NCBI GenBank assembly: GCA_020050835.1
Contig: JAGVKB010000076.1
Coordinates: 1-47,714, forward strand
From: Candidatus Obscuribacterales bacterium
GTDB taxonomy: Bacteria; Cyanobacteriota; Vampirovibrionia; Obscuribacterales; Obscuribacteraceae
Length of the DNA: 47,714 nt
Direction of reading: 5' to 3'
Positions 2,490 through 25,563 of this stretch are shown here, in pieces; the stretch's first letter is position 1, and every line of letters starts with the position of its first letter. A model generated the notes under the pieces. The model did no database searches and was not told the DNA's origin. It saw nothing but the letters and a program-made list of their open reading frames with translations. The position numbers were made by a program, and so were the translations under genes.

Positions 2490-2607
2490 GGCTGAAACTC
2501 CTAAGCTAGGCGTAAATTTCGGTCAAAATTTGAATCGTTAATCAGTATATCTAATTGCGGACGGGGTAAGATGGACTCTGTACGCTTCTAAACAAAATGG
2601 GAATCCA

Positions 2608-4014
2608 TTGCGAAAAAGCCTGCAGAAACGCCCAGTCTACCCATTTTTCTGGCAGACACTTTTAACAATCCTGGCTGGGGTCTCAGCTGGGCTTGTGGCA
2701 CTTTTCATGCTCAGCAAGACTCATGGCGAGGCGCGCTCTCACTCCTTAATCGCCGGTACGGCTGGAAGACAAGCAGTAGCGGGTGTTCCGGGATTTCCTA
2801 GTCTGCCTTGTTTGCCCACTCTCAATGAGCGGATGAATCTCCTTGTCATGGGAGTCGACTCGAATGGTAAGGGCACTCTGCGATATCTGGGAACCAGGTC
2901 CGACTCGATGATGCTGGTGAGCATCGACCCGGCCCGGCGTAGGGTTGGTGTAGTGTCCATTCCAAGAGACAGTCGGGTCGAAATTGAAGGGCACGGAACC
3001 GATAAAATCAACTCGGCGCACGCTTTTGGCGGCCCGGAGCTATCCGTGTCCACCGTGCGCAATACATTTTTAGTTCAAATCGATCACTATGTTGTAATCG
3101 ATACTCAGGGTCTAAAGCGGTTGTTTGAGGCGCTGGGTCCGGTTCAAGTGCTGGTTGAAAAGCCGATGCATTATCGCGATCGAACGGCCGGATTGAATGT
3201 CGATCTCCAGCCGGGATTGCAAACGCTCGACCCGGTGCAGGCAGAGGAATATGTGCGGTATAGACATGACGCTCGGGGTGATATCGGTCGCATGGAGCGC
3301 CAGCAATGGTTTTTGCGGCAAGTCGCACATAAGTTGAAGGAGCCGCAGATCATTCTCAAGCTGCCTGAGCTGATTGCCTTCGCTCGAGACAATGTTGTGA
3401 CCGACATGACTGCTGACGACATGGTCAGAGCGTTGTCGTTCTTGAAGGATTTGGAGCCGACCCAAGTGGCAACCGCTACCATGCCGGGTGTTCCGCAGAT
3501 GATCGCCGGCGGAAGTTACTGGGTGCCTGATATGGAACAGAGCCGAAAGGTTCTGGATCGCTTGATCGGGACTGGATTACTGTCGGCAACCAGTTTCGAT
3601 GCTCCGGAGCAGCAAGCGGCAATCGTCGATGCTAGCACCACAGGTGATACCGCCGTCGTCAAGCCGATGACAGTTTCAATCAGATATCCCAAGGGTTTGG
3701 AGGAAACAGCGCAGAATGTCGCTCAAGTATTGACCGACAACGGTTATGTCGTGCGTTATCGCTGGCAGATTCCTGAAGCAGATTGCCAGCACGAGCAGAT
3801 CAATCAGAACAGCGAGCGTGCCGATGAGATTCAAACTGATACGCTGCGCAAAGCGCTTCCGGACATCAAGGAATGGCCGGTGGTCATTTCGATTGAAAGC
3901 CGTCCAGTGTCTGACTTTACCTTAACCATCTCGCCGTCTACGACAGTGTCGAGCGCCACGCAGGTGGTCTCTTCACCGGTCAATCATCACCTGGATCGCG
4001 CTCTGGCAAATTAA
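2608..4014 (+). CDS. LytR-CpsA-Psr (LCP) family cell-wall glycopolymer ligase
   Basis: This is a 468-residue type II membrane protein. A basic start and one transmembrane segment at about 14-34 place the rest outside the inner membrane. The LCP domain spans about 75-270: NLLVMGVDS, RSDSMML, SIPRDSRV, KINSAHAFGG, then R-Y-R-H-D near 213-217 and the GRMERQQWFL motif, which hold the arginines and aspartates that bind the polyprenyl pyrophosphate. Residues 340-440 look like a LytR_C-type domain. LCP enzymes transfer lipid-linked glycopolymers to peptidoglycan or other wall acceptors. The start is a TTG at 2608; the ATG at 2597 is out of frame. It diverges from the transaldolase gene across about 120 bp. 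Confidence 0.88.
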   Translation: MRKSLQKRPVYPFFWQTLLTILAGVSAGLVALFMLSKTHGEARSHSLIAGTAGRQAVAGVPGFPSLPCLPTLNERMNLLVMGVDSNGKGTLRYLGTRSDSMMLVSIDPARRRVGVVSIPRDSRVEIEGHGTDKINSAHAFGGPELSVSTVRNTFLVQIDHYVVIDTQGLKRLFEALGPVQVLVEKPMHYRDRTAGLNVDLQPGLQTLDPVQAEEYVRYRHDARGDIGRMERQQWFLRQVAHKLKEPQIILKLPELIAFARDNVVTDMTADDMVRALSFLKDLEPTQVATATMPGVPQMIAGGSYWVPDMEQSRKVLDRLIGTGLLSATSFDAPEQQAAIVDASTTGDTAVVKPMTVSIRYPKGLEETAQNVAQVLTDNGYVVRYRWQIPEADCQHEQINQNSERADEIQTDTLRKALPDIKEWPVVISIESRPVSDFTLTISPSTTVSSATQVVSSPVNHHLDRALAN

Positions 4015-13509: not shown

Positions 13510-15294
13510 CTACGATCCGGGAGCAGATGGCGCATCAGGCAGTTCCACTCCTTCAACCTCTTTTTTGATTACTTTGGCCGATTTCTTGCGAGCTTTCTTG
13601 TCGGACTTCCTTTCTTCCTCGATCTGCTCGGAAGAAATCGCTTGCTCTGTTCGGACTGTAATCGTTCTTCGACTAATCGGCACCGGATGTGAGGAATCTC
13701 CGGTGGCTGCCCAGACAGTCAGGTAGTACAACCCTTCTTTGCCCTGATGGCTGACCGGCACAGTTCCGGAGAACATCGAGCCGGTAACCTTGATGCCTCC
13801 TTTCACCGGAACGTCAGCCGCTGCTTTCGGCTCGGTGTTGGTGGGAGACATGGCGATTAACGGCGCTGCCAGTGCAACCGGAGGCATAAATATCCCACCG
13901 GCGATGGCAGCAATCACTCCGGTTGTTTTTAGAATGGCGATTAACTTCTCACGGTCGTGTTCGGCCTTGGAAGCAAATGCGATGTAGTCTAGCGGTGGGA
14001 AGTATGGCATCGCTTCAGTTTGCTGCACTTCTTCCGGAGCGCCGTCCTGGCCGGCAGCAGCTGGGATTCCACCTTCCCAGGCGATCGTCACCTTCTGAAA
14101 TTTGTATGGTTCCAGGAGCACACCTTTTACTTCGATCTTTTGTCCAACTTGAATCTCGTTCGGGATCGGATGCATGTTGGCGTGTTTGGTCACGATTTCA
14201 GCGCAACAGATCGCTCGGTCCTTCTGACTGGCAAGACTTAGGCTGAAAGCGAAATGAGTGGCATCCGGTGAAAATAGCGCATCGCGATCGTCCTGGTGGC
14301 TTTTCAAAAGCTCGATGGACCGTGCCACGAGCGCCCTGTTTAACTTCTGACCGTCGGCGCCGCCGATACTTACCAAACTTTCCGACAAGGCGTCGTTGCC
14401 GCCGGCTTTCGTGTAGCGAGCGTCCGGATTGAGACCTGATTGATCCAGATGGGAAACAGTGTCGCGCCGGCAGAGATCGTCAATGAGCGTGGAGGCCACC
14501 CGATGCGACAGATCGTCCCACTCGAGCTGGGTAAGACCGTTTTGCTGGCGTTCTTGATTCACCAGCTCCAGGGCGAAACGCTCGAGCTGCTCGCGCGGCG
14601 CTGGTTGCTGAAAGAATGGCTGGCGCCAGGTCTCAAGCGTCCTGGAATCAATTCCGGACTGAAGGTTGCCTGCTTGAGTAGGAAGGGAAGGAGGTGTCTG
14701 GGCTGGCTCAAGCTCGAAATGCGGTACACGTAAATTGGCAGCTCCCGATCGTCGATCAGGGTCCACCGCCGGGCCGAGCAGCGTATCCTGCAACCTTTGG
14801 CTGCGTTCGGACAAGGAGAGATGCCCAAAGCTCTGGTGGTAAATCGCCTGCTCCAGCTCGCTTAGTCTTTGGGAGATAGGTAGATTCGCTCGGGGCGCGC
14901 CGAAGGTGATTGTTTCCAGCTGGCCGACCACGGGATAACTCTCTTGCCCGCCTGGTGCAATAACTTGTCCAGCATTCTTTACGGCTGATGAGCTTTTGGG
15001 TTCCGGTGAGGGCGGCGGCAGCGCCGGTGCAATCTTGGCCTGCTGCATCTGCAAATGAGGCAGCGGCGGTTTCTTGGCAGTGTTAGTGAGTGGCGGTTTC
15101 TTGGCAGTGTCGGTCAAAGAGGGTTTCTTGGCAGTGTTGGTCAAAGGTGGTTTCTTTACGGTGTCGGTCTGAGTCGGTTTATTCGCCGGAACGGCCAACG
15201 CGGGTGGCAGCCAGACCGGCGGACAAACGAGCGAAACTGCCAGGCAAGTGGCTATCGGGGATAGACGAATTTTGTCTGGTCGTAACTTAATCAC
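13510..15294 (-). CDS. Secreted CAP (SCP/PR1-like) domain protein with Lys-Pro repeats
   Basis: This 594-residue protein has a long signal peptide ending PPALA near 35. Residues 45-80 hold four nine-residue repeats of the KKPPLTNTA type. A Pro-rich region follows, then a CAP/SCP-like domain at about 235-370, beginning with the canonical pattern (L)ELVNQERQQNGLTQLEWDD and continuing with SHLDQSGLNPDARY and LSESLVSIGG. The C-terminal third has one hydrophobic segment near 455-480 (VIAAIAGGIFMPPVALAAP), a beta region and a very Lys-rich stretch. The start is GTG 15294 with GGAG upstream. CAP proteins are extracellular with varied roles; the function is not assignable. Confidence 0.83.
   Translation of the reverse strand: MIKLRPDKIRLSPIATCLAVSLVCPPVWLPPALAVPANKPTQTDTVKKPPLTNTAKKPSLTDTAKKPPLTNTAKKPPLPHLQMQQAKIAPALPPPSPEPKSSSAVKNAGQVIAPGGQESYPVVGQLETITFGAPRANLPISQRLSELEQAIYHQSFGHLSLSERSQRLQDTLLGPAVDPDRRSGAANLRVPHFELEPAQTPPSLPTQAGNLQSGIDSRTLETWRQPFFQQPAPREQLERFALELVNQERQQNGLTQLEWDDLSHRVASTLIDDLCRRDTVSHLDQSGLNPDARYTKAGGNDALSESLVSIGGADGQKLNRALVARSIELLKSHQDDRDALFSPDATHFAFSLSLASQKDRAICCAEIVTKHANMHPIPNEIQVGQKIEVKGVLLEPYKFQKVTIAWEGGIPAAAGQDGAPEEVQQTEAMPYFPPLDYIAFASKAEHDREKLIAILKTTGVIAAIAGGIFMPPVALAAPLIAMSPTNTEPKAAADVPVKGGIKVTGSMFSGTVPVSHQGKEGLYYLTVWAATGDSSHPVPISRRTITVRTEQAISSEQIEEERKSDKKARKKSAKVIKKEVEGVELPDAPSAPGS
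15065..15172 (-). repeat. Four 27-bp tandem repeats within the CAP-protein gene
   Basis: Units at 15065-15091, 15092-15118, 15119-15145 and 15146-15172 share GGTTTCTTGGCAGTG (the last diverged) and encode KKPPLTNTA-type nonapeptides. The 27-bp pitch preserves frame. Confidence 0.85.
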
Positions 15295-17234: not shown

Positions 17235-18464
17235 GTGATGCATATGATTTCCCACAAGAGTTTTTCCAAAAAGACCAGGGCTTTTGCGTTAGCCGTGGCA
17301 ATCAGTCAATCCTTGTGCCTGACACCATGGCCGGTGCAGGCTGCTGACAGCGCGATTCGAGTGGCTGGACAGGAGATCTTCACAATCACCAGCTCAGCTG
17401 GGGGCTTATCTCCCGAACAGCGTTCTGAAGCGATTCAGCGCAACATCGACAATTCATTGGTAGCGGCCAAGGATAAAACTCCGGCTGCCGTCAATATTGT
17501 CTATGTAAAGGGAGTGCCGGTGGTGACATTGGGTGGATTCCAGGTCGTGACCGTAGATTCCGAGAGCGCCAGGAAGTCTGGCACCACGCCTTCCTTGCTG
17601 GCTCAAAGTTGGGCCGATAGTTTGAGGAGGGTCCTGGTCGATAGTGCTTCGATCGACAGTTATGTCGCGCAGCTAACCGGTGATTTTGCCAAGTCGGCAC
17701 CGCCGGTGGCGTCACTTCCGCCTGCTGCCGTTCCGAATTATCCGCAAGCGCCGATCGGGGCATACCCGGCTGACTACTCGACTTACCGCGGACAAATGCA
17801 ACCGCCGGTTCAGCAAGGGCAGCCCCAGTATCGAGGAAGAGTGGCTTATATCCCGGCTGGAATGACGATGCAGGTTATATTGAGAACGTCGATCTCTACT
17901 CAGGCTTCCAGACCAGGTGATCTGGTGGAAGGACAAATTGATCAGCCGATCGTCTTAAATGACATCACAATCCCAGCTGGCTCGAGAGTAATCGGAACGA
18001 TTACCTCTTCTGATCCAGGCAGGCGGCTCGGCCGCTCTGGTGATCTGGCCATTAAATTCAATCGTTTGCGCACGCCTGACGGCAGTGAAACGCCGATTTC
18101 AGCGCATATCGTCGGTGAGATCGGCGATTACAAGCAGATTGGCAGCGATCAAAGCGGAGCCGTCAAAGGCGAAGGAATGGGCACCAAGGTCGGACAGCTC
18201 GCATTGCGGGGCGCGATCGGAGCTGGGACCGGCGCGGCACTTGGCACCGCAATTGGTGCAATAGCCGGTCGCTCTGGCCGTGCAACCGGCCGAGGAGCCT
18301 GGTCTGGGGCAGCGATCGGCGGTGGATTAGGCGCAGCTGACAGTCTGCTGCTGCGCAAAGGAAAGGATGTAAACATTCGCTCCGGCTCGATGATTCAATT
18401 ACAACTTGATGCTCCGGCTCAAGTTTCATACTCCGGTGTCCCCCCTTACACCGGAGCCTTCTAG
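17235..18464 (+). CDS. Exported protein with VirB10/TrbI-like beta domain and glycine zipper
   Basis: This 409-residue protein has a signal peptide ending PVQAA near 37. Residues 40-85 (IRVAGQEIFTITSS then SPEQRSEAIQRNI) resemble the periplasmic N-terminal piece found in some cyanobacterial MscS-type proteins. A Pro/Gln/Tyr linker leads to a beta domain at about 205-300: IPAGMTMQVILRTSIS, PGDLVEGQI and IPAGSRVIGTI, a pattern like the outer-membrane channel domain of VirB10/TrbI. Residues 315-375 form a glycine zipper (GAIGAGTGAALGTAIGAIAG). GGAG lies upstream of GTG 17235; ATG 17238 is an alternative. It converges on a gene with the same architecture. The relation to T4SS is inference. Confidence 0.8.
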   Translation: MMHMISHKSFSKKTRAFALAVAISQSLCLTPWPVQAADSAIRVAGQEIFTITSSAGGLSPEQRSEAIQRNIDNSLVAAKDKTPAAVNIVYVKGVPVVTLGGFQVVTVDSESARKSGTTPSLLAQSWADSLRRVLVDSASIDSYVAQLTGDFAKSAPPVASLPPAAVPNYPQAPIGAYPADYSTYRGQMQPPVQQGQPQYRGRVAYIPAGMTMQVILRTSISTQASRPGDLVEGQIDQPIVLNDITIPAGSRVIGTITSSDPGRRLGRSGDLAIKFNRLRTPDGSETPISAHIVGEIGDYKQIGSDQSGAVKGEGMGTKVGQLALRGAIGAGTGAALGTAIGAIAGRSGRATGRGAWSGAAIGGGLGAADSLLLRKGKDVNIRSGSMIQLQLDAPAQVSYSGVPPYTGAF

Positions 18465-18609: not shown

Positions 18610-20076
18610 TTAGTTACTTGGCAGTGGCTCTTCGGTTCTTTCGGCTTTCTTGGCCTTTTTCTTGCCGCGTTTGTCGCCGGACAGGATTTGCCCGCGCACC
18701 TTAGCCGAAGAGTTAGGCATGAGTTGAGCATCGGTGGCCGGCTCGCCGGTGAATTCTTGCTGGAATTCGACCAGGAATTCGTCCCCAGGCTTGACTATCG
18801 CTTCTTGACCTTTGACGGTCGTATCCTCAATCAGCCAGCTGCCGGGAATGCCGGAGAGGAAGCCCCAGGCAAATCCCTTCAGTCTGCGGTGACGCACATT
18901 GAGACCGACCGGTTTCATCATGGCGAAGGATGGACAGGCGGCGCCCATGATTCCAAGCGCTACCGGCATCGCCCCGAAGCTGAAGGCTCCGGCCGGTGCC
19001 AGCGCTGCGTTTAAGCCGATCCTCACCGCTTTGTACTTGAGTTGCTGCGACCAGGGCCCGGTCACTTGTCCGTTGTGGTTGACCCCCAGCTCACGGCCTT
19101 CACCCTTGTTCTTCACTACGCGCGCAGTGCGAGCTGGCATTGCTACTAACGGCAGGTGTTCCCCTCTCTCGTTGGTGATTTCGTCGAAGGCTATTCCCAG
19201 CGCTCCGGAGTTGCGATACCAGCGCTCTGGACTGACCAGCGAGTGCAGTGTAGTTCTGGCCTTCAAGACGTAATTGATATGACCTGATACCGGCGAGCCT
19301 TTCTGTGCCACCAGTCGCTCACCGATTTTGAGGTCGTATTTCAAGCGCGCCTGAATCGGGTCGTTCAATTTGGCAGTCTTGCTGTTAATCTCGGAGGTGA
19401 TCACTACCGGAAACTGGGCTCCGGTCTTTACTTTCGTGCCGCCCTCGACGGTAGGCAATTCTTTGTACTCGATAGTGGCAGTCGTCTCTTGCTGCTCGTC
19501 ATTGTCTATGACGATCGGTGCACCTTTAGTGGTGGCATACTGCGGATTGAGAAAGCCGAGCACGCTGTCCGGTGCGAGCTTCACTGCAGCCGTAGTTTGA
19601 TTGAAAGTTGCGCCTGCCGGCGGAGTTTCGGGCGCTGCCTGCGCCGGGCTTTCCCCTCTCAGCGCTATGCCGGTCGGCGCAGAATTCTCCGCCGCCGGCG
19701 TCGATTGCGGCTCGACGTTGACCATGGCAAAATTCGCAGCTGGTTGTTCTGCTGGTTTCTCAGTGTTGGCTGTGGAGGCGGCTGGCACTGTATCTGGTGC
19801 ATCGGCGTCGGTTTGTACGGGGGTGGTATCTTTTGGCACCGCGGCTACCGGGTCAACTGCGCTGCCAGTGGTGCCTGGTTCTGACAAGCTCTGCGCCAGC
19901 TCTTTGATTGGCAGCTTGTGAGGCAGGGCGATACTCTTGTTCATCAACACCGGGTGCTTCTGCGTCTTGGCCGCAAAGACCGGTTCGCAGTATTGCCCGA
20001 TTGCCAGTTGAGTCATGCAGGAAAGCAGAATACCTCGCAGCATCAATGAATGACGTGAGGATGTCTTAGTACTCAT
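18610..20076 (-). CDS. Exported protein with VirB10-like beta domain, Lys-rich tail
   Basis: This 488-residue protein has a signal peptide ending PVFAA near 36. A low-complexity Ala/Pro/Thr linker covers 60-160. The domain at about 215-320 reads GAQFPVVITSEINSKTAKLND, QKGSPVSGHI and GALGIAFDEI, matching the opposed gene at 17235 in spacing. A hydrophobic, Gly/Ala-rich stretch near 355-385 (NAALAPAGAFSFGAMPVALG) follows, and then a beta segment KPGDEFLVEFQQEF. The last 20 residues are Lys-rich. This looks like a divergent paralogue of the 17235 product. The biological role is unknown. Confidence 0.78.
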   Translation of the reverse strand: MSTKTSSRHSLMLRGILLSCMTQLAIGQYCEPVFAAKTQKHPVLMNKSIALPHKLPIKELAQSLSEPGTTGSAVDPVAAVPKDTTPVQTDADAPDTVPAASTANTEKPAEQPAANFAMVNVEPQSTPAAENSAPTGIALRGESPAQAAPETPPAGATFNQTTAAVKLAPDSVLGFLNPQYATTKGAPIVIDNDEQQETTATIEYKELPTVEGGTKVKTGAQFPVVITSEINSKTAKLNDPIQARLKYDLKIGERLVAQKGSPVSGHINYVLKARTTLHSLVSPERWYRNSGALGIAFDEITNERGEHLPLVAMPARTARVVKNKGEGRELGVNHNGQVTGPWSQQLKYKAVRIGLNAALAPAGAFSFGAMPVALGIMGAACPSFAMMKPVGLNVRHRRLKGFAWGFLSGIPGSWLIEDTTVKGQEAIVKPGDEFLVEFQQEFTGEPATDAQLMPNSSAKVRGQILSGDKRGKKKAKKAERTEEPLPSN

Positions 20077-20191: not shown

Positions 20192-23092
20192 CTAATAGCC
20201 CGGCCCGAGCAGCTGAAATGCTGCCCAGGTTCTTGGCGATGGATTCTTGGAGATGGAGATCAATTGGGCTTTACGCAAGGACTGAGCTTCGTTGAGCCCT
20301 TTTTCCTTTCCGCGATAGAAGTCGACCAGCTGATTGGTTCTTTGCAAGTCTGGCTCGACCCAGAGGCTCATCATGACATTGCGTACGCCGGCGTAGCTGA
20401 GGCCCCGGCTGAAAACCTTGATGGCAGTCCCCTGGAGGTCTTTTGAGTTGACGGTCGTACCGCTCCAGACAACTAAGTCGGAGGGAAGATTCAGTCCGAA
20501 GAGTCTGTCGGCCGTGACTTTGTTTTTTTCATCATCCTTGTTGGACAAATTCGGCAAAATCGCTTGCTGAGGGTTCAACTCGCTGAGTGCAACTTTGCTG
20601 GAAAAGTGCAGTACCGTCCGTCCTTTTGCCTGTTCTTGCAGATTGTTGATTTCAGCTTCTTTGCCGACCAGATTGGTTACGAGGTCCGGCTGAAACAGGC
20701 TGGCGATCTGGTTGGTTTCATAGTTATTGCCGTTAGCACTCGGTGAGGCGGCGTCCGGAGCCATTACAACGCTCATGTCATGCGAGTACGGCGGCGGGCT
20801 GTCAAGAAAGACTCCCATCGAGGATGACAGAGTCAAGGTGTGGTGCTCGATCAGATACTTGCCGGACCGGTCTACCAGCGCTCCAAACGGCAAGTTGTAC
20901 AGCACTCCGTCCGGCAGCACCACTACTGTTTGATCCGGATTGTCGGGAAGCACTTCACGCACCGCTTCCGGCAGCAATTCTTGATAAAGTTGTTGCAGCG
21001 TTCTGCGCTCCACTTGCGCATCCGGCTTGGCCGATGCTAACAGGGACGAGACTTGCGGTTGCAATTCGGCCCGGCCGACTGCCAGCTTGGTGGCATTGAG
21101 CCTGCCGCTCTGGTCGATCGTAAAGACTATCGTTGAATGTGGTCCGACTAAATAGTCGATCGCTACTGCATGATTGGATTGAATCCCCTTCGCGATGTCC
21201 TGGTAGGTGATCGACACCGGTGCTATCAACCTGGCCAGCGCTCTGTTGGTCGATGCTAGTTGCTTGAAGCGGACCAGCCAATTCTGCCAATCTTTCAGCA
21301 GCTTGTCCGGCGACGTATTGGTTTCGGCCGCATGTAAATGGGCGCGTTGATTGACCAGGTCGTTGAAGATATCGCGATCGTAGGGTTTGACTTCGCCACC
21401 GTGTCTGAGCCAATCATTAATAAAGGATTCCTCCTTCAACTGTTCGGCGGCGATTAGGGCCGGCTCGTATTGATCTTGTGATACCAAAAGCGATACTAGT
21501 TGTTGGCCAAGGTCTTCGCGCGGGGTCGGGAAGCCAAGCCGTTCGGGCGAGGCAAACCAGCCGGCTTGCGGCGAGCGGAAATAGGACAAGGCGCTATTCA
21601 AGGATTCCTTGGCTTGAGGTTGTTGACCGAGCGCCAATTGAAGAGTGGCGAGATTGGTGTAATCGCGCCACAAGGCCGTGTCGTCGTTAATCTTCTCGCT
21701 GACTGTAATTCCTGCTCTCAAATATTTGTCCGCTTCGGGCGGATCCTGAAGATTCAGGCAAACTTCACCGAGAGCCGCATAAACTCGACCTTCCATTAAC
21801 AAGTCTTTCTTCTTCTTCAAGTAAGGGAAGCAAGCCAGCAAATGCGCTTTGGCATTGCGGTTGTCGTTGTTTCGAGATTCAGCCGCGGCTAGATTCTGCA
21901 GCATTACCATCGCGAAATAGTCTTGCTTGGGTTGCACCATCGAAACCGCTTCCAGCGCTTGAGTGATTAGTTGGACTGCTCTTGGATAGTGACCATCGAG
22001 CGCTTCGATGCAGCCGAATGTGTTCAAGACTTGAGCTTGTTCGATCGGCGTTCCCTTGGCTTTCAAAGACTTGAGGGCTATCTCCATTACCGCCTTGGCC
22101 GGAAGCAGGTCGCCGCTGCCGGCGAGCGTATGGGCGTAACCGGCTTGTAGTCTGGCGATTGCCAGTTCATTGGCCGATTTCAAATAGAGGAGCTCTTCAT
22201 AACTCTTGCGCGCATTGGAGTATTCACCGAGATTGTATTGGGTGATCGCCAGCGCAGCCAGGGCTGCTGGCACCAGCGCTTTGTCCTTAGTTTCGCGGGC
22301 CAGCTCCAAGGCTTTGTTTGCTTCTTCCTGAGCGGCAACCAGCCAACCCAGCTCGCGCATCATGCCGCTCAAGGCGACACGTGTTTTGACTGATTCCTCG
22401 ACGTTGCCGGCTTGCTCGTAATAAGAGCAAGCTCCTTGATAGAAGCGAATCGCTTCCTTGATTTTCATCATCTTGACCAAAACCATGCCGGAAATGGTCA
22501 TTACTTTTGCCGCTTCCGGTGCATCGTTCATGCCGAACTGGGTAAACGACTTCAAGGCCTGATCAAGCTGATTGGCTGCCCATACCGGATTGTCCATCAT
22601 GAAGTAAGCTTGTGCTAAAGCCACTCTGGCTTTGCCGAGCGATTTCTTGTCGCCGGATTCCGACAGCATTTCGATTGCGTTCTCGCCGAGCTCCTTGGCC
22701 TTGGTGGCCTGCCCGCGCATCAGATATATTTCGCACATGAGCGTCAGCGCACGGCCTTGCCCGTCTGCATACTTCATTTCAAGCGACATGCCATAGGCTT
22801 CTTGTGTCTTAGACAGCGCCTTGTCGGCTTCATGCCTCTCCATGTACTTCCGTGCATCAGCTTCGAGCTGATGCACCCTGTCAATGGTCTCCGGCGTTTG
22901 CGGAATCTCCGGAGCCGCCGGAATGGGGATTTGGGTTGCCGGTTGATCAGCCGCAAAAGTGGCTATCCTGGCGTTTCCAATTAGAAGCGCCAGCGATAGA
23001 AAAGCGATGCTCAATTTCCGAGGAGATAACCAGATGTGACTCTTCAAAATGGACCTTCCGTAATTTCTGTGGGAATCGGCTTCACCGTTCAT
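20192..23092 (-). CDS. Exported TPR protein with degenerate CHAT domain
   Basis: This is a 966-residue protein. After a basic start, a hydrophobic segment at 26-48 is a signal peptide or anchor. Residues 70-530 are many tetratricopeptide repeats (for example ALAQAYFMMDNPVWAANQLDQ). Residues 640-966 form a CHAT (caspase-HetF-associated) fold: ILPDGVLYNLPFGALVD-like strand-loop, the ADRLFGLNLPSDLVVWSG segment, AGVRNVMMSLW and FYRGKEKGLNEAQSLRKAQ. The catalytic histidine motif (LHFATHG) is replaced by LHFSSKV, with Lys at about 833. The cysteine motif (LSACxT) is replaced by WSGTTV, with Thr at about 879. A protease function is therefore unlikely; a scaffold role is inferred. Confidence 0.88.
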   Translation of the reverse strand: MNGEADSHRNYGRSILKSHIWLSPRKLSIAFLSLALLIGNARIATFAADQPATQIPIPAAPEIPQTPETIDRVHQLEADARKYMERHEADKALSKTQEAYGMSLEMKYADGQGRALTLMCEIYLMRGQATKAKELGENAIEMLSESGDKKSLGKARVALAQAYFMMDNPVWAANQLDQALKSFTQFGMNDAPEAAKVMTISGMVLVKMMKIKEAIRFYQGACSYYEQAGNVEESVKTRVALSGMMRELGWLVAAQEEANKALELARETKDKALVPAALAALAITQYNLGEYSNARKSYEELLYLKSANELAIARLQAGYAHTLAGSGDLLPAKAVMEIALKSLKAKGTPIEQAQVLNTFGCIEALDGHYPRAVQLITQALEAVSMVQPKQDYFAMVMLQNLAAAESRNNDNRNAKAHLLACFPYLKKKKDLLMEGRVYAALGEVCLNLQDPPEADKYLRAGITVSEKINDDTALWRDYTNLATLQLALGQQPQAKESLNSALSYFRSPQAGWFASPERLGFPTPREDLGQQLVSLLVSQDQYEPALIAAEQLKEESFINDWLRHGGEVKPYDRDIFNDLVNQRAHLHAAETNTSPDKLLKDWQNWLVRFKQLASTNRALARLIAPVSITYQDIAKGIQSNHAVAIDYLVGPHSTIVFTIDQSGRLNATKLAVGRAELQPQVSSLLASAKPDAQVERRTLQQLYQELLPEAVREVLPDNPDQTVVVLPDGVLYNLPFGALVDRSGKYLIEHHTLTLSSSMGVFLDSPPPYSHDMSVVMAPDAASPSANGNNYETNQIASLFQPDLVTNLVGKEAEINNLQEQAKGRTVLHFSSKVALSELNPQQAILPNLSNKDDEKNKVTADRLFGLNLPSDLVVWSGTTVNSKDLQGTAIKVFSRGLSYAGVRNVMMSLWVEPDLQRTNQLVDFYRGKEKGLNEAQSLRKAQLISISKNPSPRTWAAFQLLGPGY

Positions 23093-23417: not shown

Positions 23418-23894
23418 ATGACAACTTCCGTAAGTAAGACATTGCTTGCATCGCTTACCTTCATTGCAATCGCCGGCCCAGCTCCGAGCATTGCCTCGGA
23501 CACAACCTTGAGCGGCCACGCCTCCAAGACGACTGCCAAAACGAGCGCTGTCAAGCGGTATTTCTCAGAGCATCCGAAAGTTCGTGGTGCCACCATTGGT
23601 GCCGGAGTCGGTACTGCCGCCGGGGCAGTTACCGGGTTGATCAGCGGCAAAGGCATTATGCGTGGAGCGGCAATCGGTGCCGGTACCGGAGCGGGAGTCG
23701 GGGCGATCGCTGCGAGCAAGACCATGAAGAGCCACCCGGTAGTTAAGGACACGGCGGTCGGCACGATTGCCGGACTCGGATTCGGAATGGCTGCCAGCAA
23801 AGGGCACGGCACTGCCAAAACTTCCGTCAAGGCGGCGGCAGTTGGCGGAGCGCTCGGCCTGGGGTTGGGACTGCTGAAAGATAAAGTAAAGTAA
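23418..23894 (+). CDS. Secreted glycine-zipper protein
   Basis: This 158-residue protein has a signal peptide (TSVSKTLLASLTFIAIAG, ending SIAS). The remainder is built from GxxxG zipper repeats: ATIGAGVGTAAGAVTG at about 58-73, GAAIGAGTGAGVGAIAA, AVGTIAGLGFGMAAS and AVGGALGLGLGLL. Such repeats pack helices in membranes and occur in outer-membrane-associated lipoproteins and pore-forming proteins. The start ATG has a strong AGGAG ribosome-binding site five bases upstream, which favours this gene over a longer open frame on the other strand. It sits four bases before glpD, so the two share a transcript. The function is not known. Confidence 0.78.
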   Translation: MTTSVSKTLLASLTFIAIAGPAPSIASDTTLSGHASKTTAKTSAVKRYFSEHPKVRGATIGAGVGTAAGAVTGLISGKGIMRGAAIGAGTGAGVGAIAASKTMKSHPVVKDTAVGTIAGLGFGMAASKGHGTAKTSVKAAAVGGALGLGLGLLKDKVK

Positions 23895-23898
23895 CAGC

Positions 23899-25563
23899 AT
23901 GAAAACCCGCGCTCAGTCTTTGCAGATTGCTTCTACCCGAAAGTTCGATCTGGCGGTAGTCGGCGGCGGCATAGCCGGGGCGGGAGTAGCTCAAGATGCC
24001 GCTTCCCGCGGACTTTCCGTGATAGTGGTGGAAAAGGAGGATTTCGCCTCCGGCACCTCCAGCAAGACGACCAAGCTTATCCACGGTGGGCTCAGGTATC
24101 TCGAGCAGTTTCATTTCAAGCTGACCCGGGAGCTATGTCAGGAGCGCGGCTTGCTTGAGCAGCTCGCACCGCACCTGGTCAGGGATTTCAGCTTCATCAT
24201 GCCGCTGGTCAAGGACAGCCCGTTTTTCTCGCTAAAGGCCGAGATTGGTTTGACTTTGTACGACCTGCTGTCTTGGTCGGTATCCGGCGCTCGTCACCAT
24301 CGCCGGTTGTCGCAAAAGGAGGTGCTGGATTCCGTTCCGGCCTTGAATCCTCAGGTCTTTTCCGGCGGACTGAGATTTCACGATTGCATTACTGACGATT
24401 CCCGCATGGTGCTGGAGGTGATCAAGTCAGCTTGCAACGAGGGTGCGCTGGCCATTAATTATATGGAGGTCCAGGGCTTCGAGCAGACTGAAGGCCAAGT
24501 GCGTGCACTCAAATGCCGCGATCGTTACTCCGGGCAGGAGTTGACTATCAGTGCAAAGGCGTGCGTGAACGCCACCGGTGTCTGGTCGGATCAACTGTAT
24601 GAAATGCTCGAACCGGCTTGGAAAAGTCATGTGCAACCTTCCAAGGGCATTCACATCATCGTTCCAGCTTCTGCTTTTGAAACAAACACCGCCTTGTTCT
24701 TGCCCACTTCCGACGGGCGTTACGTATTCGTCGTTCCCTGGCAGCGAGCGCTGATGGTTGGAACGACCGACAGGCCGTATACCGGTTCGCTTGAAAGGCC
24801 GCTGCCGGATCGAGATGAGATTGATTACTTGCTTAAGGTGATCAATGGTTTTACCGAGACTCACCGCTTGAATCGCAGCGACATCATCGGCTCGTTCGCC
24901 GGCTTGAGACCGCTCGTTCAGTCGGAAACAGCCAGCGCCGATACCAACAGCCTGTCGCGCGAGCACGTCATTTTCGAAGGTCCCGGCGGCGTAGTCGGAC
25001 TCAATGGCGGCAAGCTGACCAATTACCGGCTGATGGCCGGTCAAGTCCTGGAGCTCGTGGCCAAGCGCCTGCCCGGCGTGGAGCTAAAAGGATCTCGGAC
25101 GAAGAGGTTGATGCTGGGCGGTTTCAAGGATAAATCAGATTTCCTGGCGCAGACTGCGGCTATCTCTGCCAAAGCGCGCAGGCTTTCAATCGAACCGGCC
25201 ACGCTCGATCATCTGATCGCCAGCTACGGATCGGAAGCGGCGTTGATAGTGGACATCGTCGAGGCTGACTCGACATTGAATCAGCGAGTTTGTCCAGACT
25301 TTCCGCCAATTATGGCCGAGGTGCCATTTTGTGTGACCAACGAAATGGCGGTGTCTCTTGAAGACCTTCTGATGCGCCGGTTGAGATTGGGAATCCTTCA
25401 CCAGCGGCAGTGCTTGGAAGCAGCTCCGAAGGTCGCCGCCTTGATGGGTCAGACTCTAGGGTGGGACAATCCGCGCGTTTCGTATGAGCTGGCGGGGCTG
25501 GAGCGCAGTCTCAAAGAGCATATGGATCTGGTCGCTGACTTGAGCGCCAGCCAATCGCCGTAG
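23899..25563 (+). CDS. glpD: Glycerol-3-phosphate dehydrogenase, FAD-dependent
   Basis: This 554-residue flavoprotein oxidises sn-glycerol-3-phosphate to dihydroxyacetone phosphate and gives electrons to the quinone pool. FDLAVVGGGIAGAGVA (about 17-32) is the ADP-binding FAD motif. SGTSSKTTKLIHGGLRYL (50-68) is the GlpD signature, and PSKGIHIIVP, VPWQRALMVGTTDRPY and the GPGGVVGLNGGKLTNYR segment are also conserved. The C-terminal 130 residues form the usual helical DAO_C domain. Length is typical. No glpF or glpK accompanies it, only the upstream glycine-zipper gene; the substrate may come from lipid turnover. Confidence 0.95.
   Translation: MKTRAQSLQIASTRKFDLAVVGGGIAGAGVAQDAASRGLSVIVVEKEDFASGTSSKTTKLIHGGLRYLEQFHFKLTRELCQERGLLEQLAPHLVRDFSFIMPLVKDSPFFSLKAEIGLTLYDLLSWSVSGARHHRRLSQKEVLDSVPALNPQVFSGGLRFHDCITDDSRMVLEVIKSACNEGALAINYMEVQGFEQTEGQVRALKCRDRYSGQELTISAKACVNATGVWSDQLYEMLEPAWKSHVQPSKGIHIIVPASAFETNTALFLPTSDGRYVFVVPWQRALMVGTTDRPYTGSLERPLPDRDEIDYLLKVINGFTETHRLNRSDIIGSFAGLRPLVQSETASADTNSLSREHVIFEGPGGVVGLNGGKLTNYRLMAGQVLELVAKRLPGVELKGSRTKRLMLGGFKDKSDFLAQTAAISAKARRLSIEPATLDHLIASYGSEAALIVDIVEADSTLNQRVCPDFPPIMAEVPFCVTNEMAVSLEDLLMRRLRLGILHQRQCLEAAPKVAALMGQTLGWDNPRVSYELAGLERSLKEHMDLVADLSASQSP

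Follow-up and report, generated by a model that had tools for sequence, protein, structure and literature searches.

Obscuribacterales are non-photosynthetic relatives of the cyanobacteria, and the DNA considered here (the window) is a stretch of 47,714 nucleotides from a member of this order, a Candidatus Obscuribacterales bacterium (assembly GCA_020050835.1, contig JAGVKB010000076.1). It carries a gene whose product, containing ...TVLHFSSKVALSELN... and ...DLVVWSGTTVNSKD..., joins a signal-like N-terminus and a TPR array to a CHAT domain in which the two catalytic residues of active CHAT proteases are replaced; we refer to it as the pseudo-CHAT protein (Table 1). The codons for both replaced positions lie within 20192-20640. 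The gene order kept at this locus is a divergent glpD, the pseudo-CHAT gene and, downstream of it, a gene for an exported protein, termed the partner below. Between glpD and the pseudo-CHAT gene, the window also holds a gene for a small glycine-zipper protein (23418-23894, +), and similar-sized open reading frames sit at that position in many relatives; this gene was left out of the locus counts since the gene caller kept a longer antisense reading frame over it. An exported CAP-domain protein (13510-15294, −) is matched near the pseudo-CHAT gene in 22 of 42 loci.

Table 1. Coordinates of the locus features in the window, with the basis for each
Feature	Coordinates	Strand	Basis
Convergent gene; second exported protein, distant relative of the partner	17235..18464	+	27/42 loci; hhalign
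Partner gene; signal-like N-terminus and VirB10-CTD-like domain (about residues 210-446)	18610..20076	−	Synteny, fold search
Pseudo-CHAT TPR protein, 966 aa	20192..23092	−	ORF call, Pfam; orthologue searches
Signal-peptide-like hydrophobic segment, about residues 26-47	22952..23017	−	Sequence, similar segment in orthologues; predicted
TPR array, about residues 67-507	21572..22894	−	Pfam TPR_12 and TPR_MalT; helical pairs in model
CHAT domain, residues 697-963	20204..21004	−	PF12770, model, fold search
Codon for Lys833, position of the catalytic His	20594..20596	−	Alignments
Codon for Thr879, position of the catalytic Cys	20456..20458	−	Alignments; Ser/Thr in 38/39 aligned orthologues
Lys884-Asp885, kept in the family (31/39, 36/39), not kept in active CHATs	20438..20443	−	Alignments
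glpD, divergent glycerol-3-phosphate dehydrogenase gene, syntenic anchor	23899..25563	+	39/42 loci; NCBIfam

Domain architecture and predicted fold

The window protein is clearly a member of the CHAT domain family, both by profile and by its caspase/separase-like fold. The match to PF12770 scores 119.3 bits against a cut-off of 24 (E 2.8e-34) and, running from position 2 to position 288 of 289, covers nearly the full profile. At E up to 0.01, Pfam returns CHAT and TPR families only, and neither a Peptidase C14 (p20) domain nor an anti-sigma domain is found. Pfam and the AlphaFold2 model agree on the CHAT domain and the TPR array that the first-pass annotation had described; the model has a mean pLDDT of 84.9, and its first 60 residues are disordered. 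Foldseek ranks DdvA (8rw5, 8rot) first (E 1.6e-14), with separase and Csx29 (TPR-CHAT) also among the best matches. Structural superposition with VIA-align gives Z 27.0 for Csx29 (560 aligned, rmsd 9.4), Z 26.0 for the separase protease domain 5fby (ctSPD; 309 aligned, rmsd 3.1), Z 19.6 for DdvA (600 residues aligned, rmsd 6.6) and Z 16.7 for gingipain R, and in this overlay, of the kind suggested by the first-pass annotation, the fold of the window protein, as modelled, is that of the proteases. A profile-based sequence search of solved structures returned matches to the TPR region and no CHAT proteins.

The likeness to DdvA raises the possibility of a sensor, in which the exported TPR-CHAT protein would bind a ligand or stress signal and relay it, as the extracytoplasmic part of DdvA may do. 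DdvA is a transmembrane anti-sigma factor with the same TPR-CHAT arrangement, and one report describes it as the anti-sigma factor of the ECF sigma factor DdvS (PMC4374960). The rank of DdvA among the Foldseek matches and the length of the aligned region speak for such a role; on the other side, DdvA keeps the dyad motifs (LATHG and AAC) that the window protein does not have, and Pfam shows no anti-sigma domain in the latter; this reading is improbable.

The pseudo-CHAT protein is likely to be exported, since nearly all orthologues begin with an N-terminal hydrophobic stretch. This stretch passes a hydropathy cut of 1.6 over 15 residues in 33 of 42 orthologues and reaches 1.45-1.57 in seven further ones, while the two clear failures (L097 and L095) both begin at a contig end. 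The signal peptide proposed in the first-pass annotation is thus matched by a hydrophobic segment in all orthologues but the two cut by contig ends, and export itself stands as a prediction.

Loss of the catalytic dyad across the family

In an alignment to two CHAT paralogues from the same genome, which carry the motifs VIHLATHG...LSACQT and VVHFAGHA...LSACQT, Lys833 falls on the catalytic His and Thr879 on the catalytic Cys. The residue numbers given in the first-pass annotation are correct, and by its residues the window protein does not belong among the active CHAT proteases: both catalytic residues are missing. Its only cysteines (residues 120, 222, 361, 421 and 445) all lie in the TPR part, leaving none in the CHAT part.

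The same loss runs through the family. Among 46 distinct CHAT sequences of the family, position 833 is His in none and position 879 is Cys in one (L038), whereas 47 of 48 other CHATs have both residues and the remaining one has Gln and Cys; the missing dyad of the window copy is thus not a chance finding. The 48 comparison sequences were 20 paralogues from the order and class and the 28 top matches to the pseudo-CHAT profile in a 292-genome sample of the phylum, a choice that should favour look-alikes. Duplicated, truncated or split loci (L003, L135, L048, L102, L039, L040, L087, L126, L146) were omitted from the dyad counts, as were identical rows and rows shorter than 150 residues, with L049 retained. 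Two of the omitted loci, L048 and L146, have His and Cys in the alignment; a third, L087, also lacks the dyad when read through its stop (LHLATQ, SGTT). The L087 orthologue (2540-3052, +) has this in-frame stop just ahead of the active-site region, as a sequencing error or a true break.

What replaces the dyad is not fixed. Of the 39 aligned orthologues, 16 have Lys at position 833 and the others have Pro, Ser, Asn, Arg, Asp, Ala, Tyr or Gly there; at position 879, Thr and Ser occur in 19 each, and the remaining orthologue has Ala. The 46 distinct sequences have Lys at 833 in 21 cases (Pro, Ser, Asn, Arg, Ala, Asp, Tyr, Gly or Gln in the other 25) and Ser or Thr at 879 in 44. Conservation in homologues, which the first-pass annotation had proposed as a check, therefore holds for the Thr position as Ser/Thr and fails for Lys833, which, present in just 21 of 46, would not itself be functional across the family. 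One orthologue from the order's second family, L038 (549-3785, +), has Lys at the His position together with a Cys, either kept or regained, at the Cys position (LSKCS), and may represent a half-way state; in its relative L049 the two positions are Lys and Ser.

Could the replacements themselves form a new active site, with Lys833 and Ser/Thr879 acting as a Ser/Thr-Lys dyad? Position 879 is indeed nearly always Ser or Thr, and Lys is paired with one of them in 20 of 46 sequences (18 with Ser, 2 with Thr). However, a family-wide Lys-based site is unlikely because 25 of 46 lack the Lys, and in the TPR-CHAT protein Csx29 the change of Cys627 to Ala or Ser is reported to abolish cutting (PMC9729208). 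That Cys-to-Ser result both makes a re-invented site very unlikely and, given Ser/Thr at the Cys position here, argues that the CHAT domain is inert.

We also looked for the two findings that the first-pass annotation had named as evidence against it, another His/Cys pair and homologues with intact residues, and found neither. No Cys is conserved anywhere in the CHAT part of the family, 11 of 39 orthologues having none there at all, and no counted orthologue has the intact pair. A second Cys/His active site was rejected on these grounds: the conserved His residues (His587, His751 and His829) have no Cys partner, and His829 is the first His of LHFATHG/IHLATHG, present in active CHATs too. The family does conserve Trp876 (26/39), Gly888 (37/39) and Arg896 (34/39) as well as the Lys-Asp pair of Table 1, all of which lie near the former active site in the linear sequence; the active paralogues share Gly888.

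Constraint and phylogeny bear on whether the gene is simply decaying in one genome. Orthologues were found by profile search in 50 of 53 Obscuribacterales genomes, with identities of up to 69% in most relatives by protein search; the family is missing from G001, from G065 (70% complete) and from G068 (64% complete), the last showing the paralogue only. Scanning GTDB contigs with a single protein gave no match, while an alignment query gave 42 loci, including one in Candidatus Obscuribacter phosphatis. The 292-genome phylum sample yielded no full-length orthologue from beyond the order; matches from outside it lay mostly in the CHAT end, the highest reaching 168.6 bits compared with 1408.5 for the window protein. 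In a tree of 94 rows made by a quick method, with the two active-site stretches omitted, a branch with an SH-aLRT of 100 separates the family from all other rows, and the tree requires two losses of the His (in the family clade and in L159) and two changes at the Cys. The CHAT L159, which comes from another family of the phylum, has Gln at the catalytic His position, keeps the Cys and sits on a long branch.

Simple Nei-Gojobori counts on 12 close pairs give a dN/dS of 0.015-0.058 in eight, with saturation in the remaining four, and judged from these ratios the family is under purifying selection. Across 78 genome pairs from 13 genomes, mean CHAT identity is 48% for the pseudo-CHAT protein vs 53% for the active paralogue, the pseudo form being the less identical in 64 pairs; it appears to evolve slightly faster than the active paralogue, yet clearly under constraint. 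Decay of a single copy could account for the missing residues, and one relative (L087, genome G073) does have an in-frame stop in the gene. Against this, the gene is open in nearly all relatives, dN/dS is far below 1 and the dyad loss is family-wide; the orthologues, purifying selection and the tree together rule out single-copy decay, to which we give a negligible probability. The first-pass reading of the protein as a pseudoprotease is, on these sequence comparisons, well supported: the dyad is absent family-wide, the CHAT part has no Cys, and Cys mutants of Csx29 are inactive.

A conserved VirB10-like neighbour

The partner is present at 34 of 42 loci and is the next gene in 34 of the 37 with enough sequence, another gene intervening at one of the 34 (L110). 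Five loci end before the partner position (L078, L082, L102, L103, L115), and the two genes also adjoin in the order's second family (G037:C288, G036:C36). The partner is not strictly required, because three loci have a pseudo-CHAT gene without it there (L086, L088, L101) and a genome-wide match to the partner is lacking in G027; conversely, G001 has partner-like proteins and no pseudo-CHAT gene. The gap between the two genes often exceeds 100 bp (115 bp in the window), so a single transcript for both is not certain.

The partner has a start resembling a signal peptide, a stretch of low complexity and, at its C-terminus, a part that is about 70% identical over most of the order. Its model is weak overall (mean pLDDT 58.5), but all 21 Foldseek matches of its confident beta core, at E up to 0.001, are chains of VirB10 kind from type IV secretion core complexes. 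In VIA-align, 14 VirB10, CagY, TrwE and ComB10 entries score Z 8.1-11.3 (the best with 122 aligned and rmsd 2.9), against 3.7 for the first other row, and the core is predicted to have the fold of the VirB10 C-terminal domain. Unlike known VirB10 systems, the partner has no Pfam family, including TrbI (PF03743), at E up to 0.01, and the VirB9 (CagX) and VirB4 families have no match in the window genome, whose assembly is 95.7% complete; across the order, weak matches to TrbI are frequent. The locus looks like an orphan VirB10-like system and not a type IV secretion system, and a literature search on orphan VirB10 in cyanobacteria returned nothing to the point. The convergent gene's protein aligns with the partner in hhalign (probability 83, E 8.8e-6), and further, more distant copies of the VirB10-like domain are seen elsewhere in the order.

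A proposed binding role and its nearest parallels

We think it probable that the pseudo-CHAT protein is a non-proteolytic, exported binding scaffold that works with the orphan VirB10-like envelope protein. Binding rather than cutting is the most likely activity because the dead form is kept beside the VirB10-like gene in nearly every relative sampled. In the sequence of events that we envision, an exported TPR-CHAT protein would have lost its catalytic His in an ancestor of the Obscuribacterales, and the Cys would then have been lost nearly everywhere, while the caspase-like fold and the TPR superhelix were retained. Exported to the cell envelope, the protein would bind other proteins through its TPR array and inert CHAT domain, most likely among them the exported product of the gene just downstream, and together the two would make up an assembly in the envelope, with the CHAT fold serving as a docking or conformational-switch module and not as a cutter. 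The scaffold role named by the first-pass annotation is thus plausible, and the conserved neighbour with its VirB10-like fold is the new evidence for it. A bolder version is tentative and somewhat doubtful: the caspase-fold pseudoprotease and its orphan VirB10-like neighbour may together build an undescribed, order-wide assembly of the envelope or outer membrane that operates apart from type IV secretion, with the dead CHAT domain as a structural gate or dock.

A further reading is that of a decoy or regulator of an active protease, as cFLIP is for caspase-8. By analogy, the dead CHAT domain might compete for substrates with an intact CHAT paralogue or inhibit it, and paralogues with an intact dyad do exist in the window genome (L001, L002) and in many relatives. 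They sit on other contigs in the window genome, however, and in genomes such as G002, G012, G013, G014 and G030 no second CHAT match appeared among the candidates scored (at most 16 per genome). On balance, we regard a decoy or regulatory role as unlikely.

The binding scaffold that we favour can be set beside several known systems. Csx29, of the type III-E CRISPR Craspase, has a TPR array followed by a CHAT domain like the window protein, but it is reported to have the His-Cys dyad and to cut Csx30 (PMC9729208). The window protein has no such dyad, and its N-terminus is signal-like. A Craspase subunit would be expected to partner Cas7-11; the genes conserved around the pseudo-CHAT gene are glpD and that for the VirB10-like protein. 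Separase likewise carries a CHAT-like caspase fold after a helical repeat, but it is an active eukaryotic protease.

Among caspase-fold proteases, pseudo-forms have been described for the orthocaspases, and these are the nearest known concept. The cyanobacterial pseudo-orthocaspases are conserved caspase-fold proteins of photosynthetic bacteria that have a p20 (orthocaspase) domain with Tyr-Ser in place of His-Cys, according to PMC6426788, which mentions neither CHAT nor HetF; deletion of one orthocaspase, SyOC, is reported to have raised tolerance of oxidative stress (PMC7889975). In contrast, the family described here has a CHAT domain, no fixed replacement pair (Tyr-Ser in one of 46 sequences, Lys-Thr in the window copy) and a non-photosynthetic host order. 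A literature search, with most subscription papers and preprints outside its scope, gave no report of a whole orthologous CHAT family without the dyad.

For the biology of this order, these findings mean that a CHAT fold can persist without its dyad across a whole bacterial order, that the Lys-Cys orthologue from the second family may preserve a half-way state of dyad loss, and that the conserved VirB10-like neighbour gives a specific partner to test in a lineage that has seen little experimental work.
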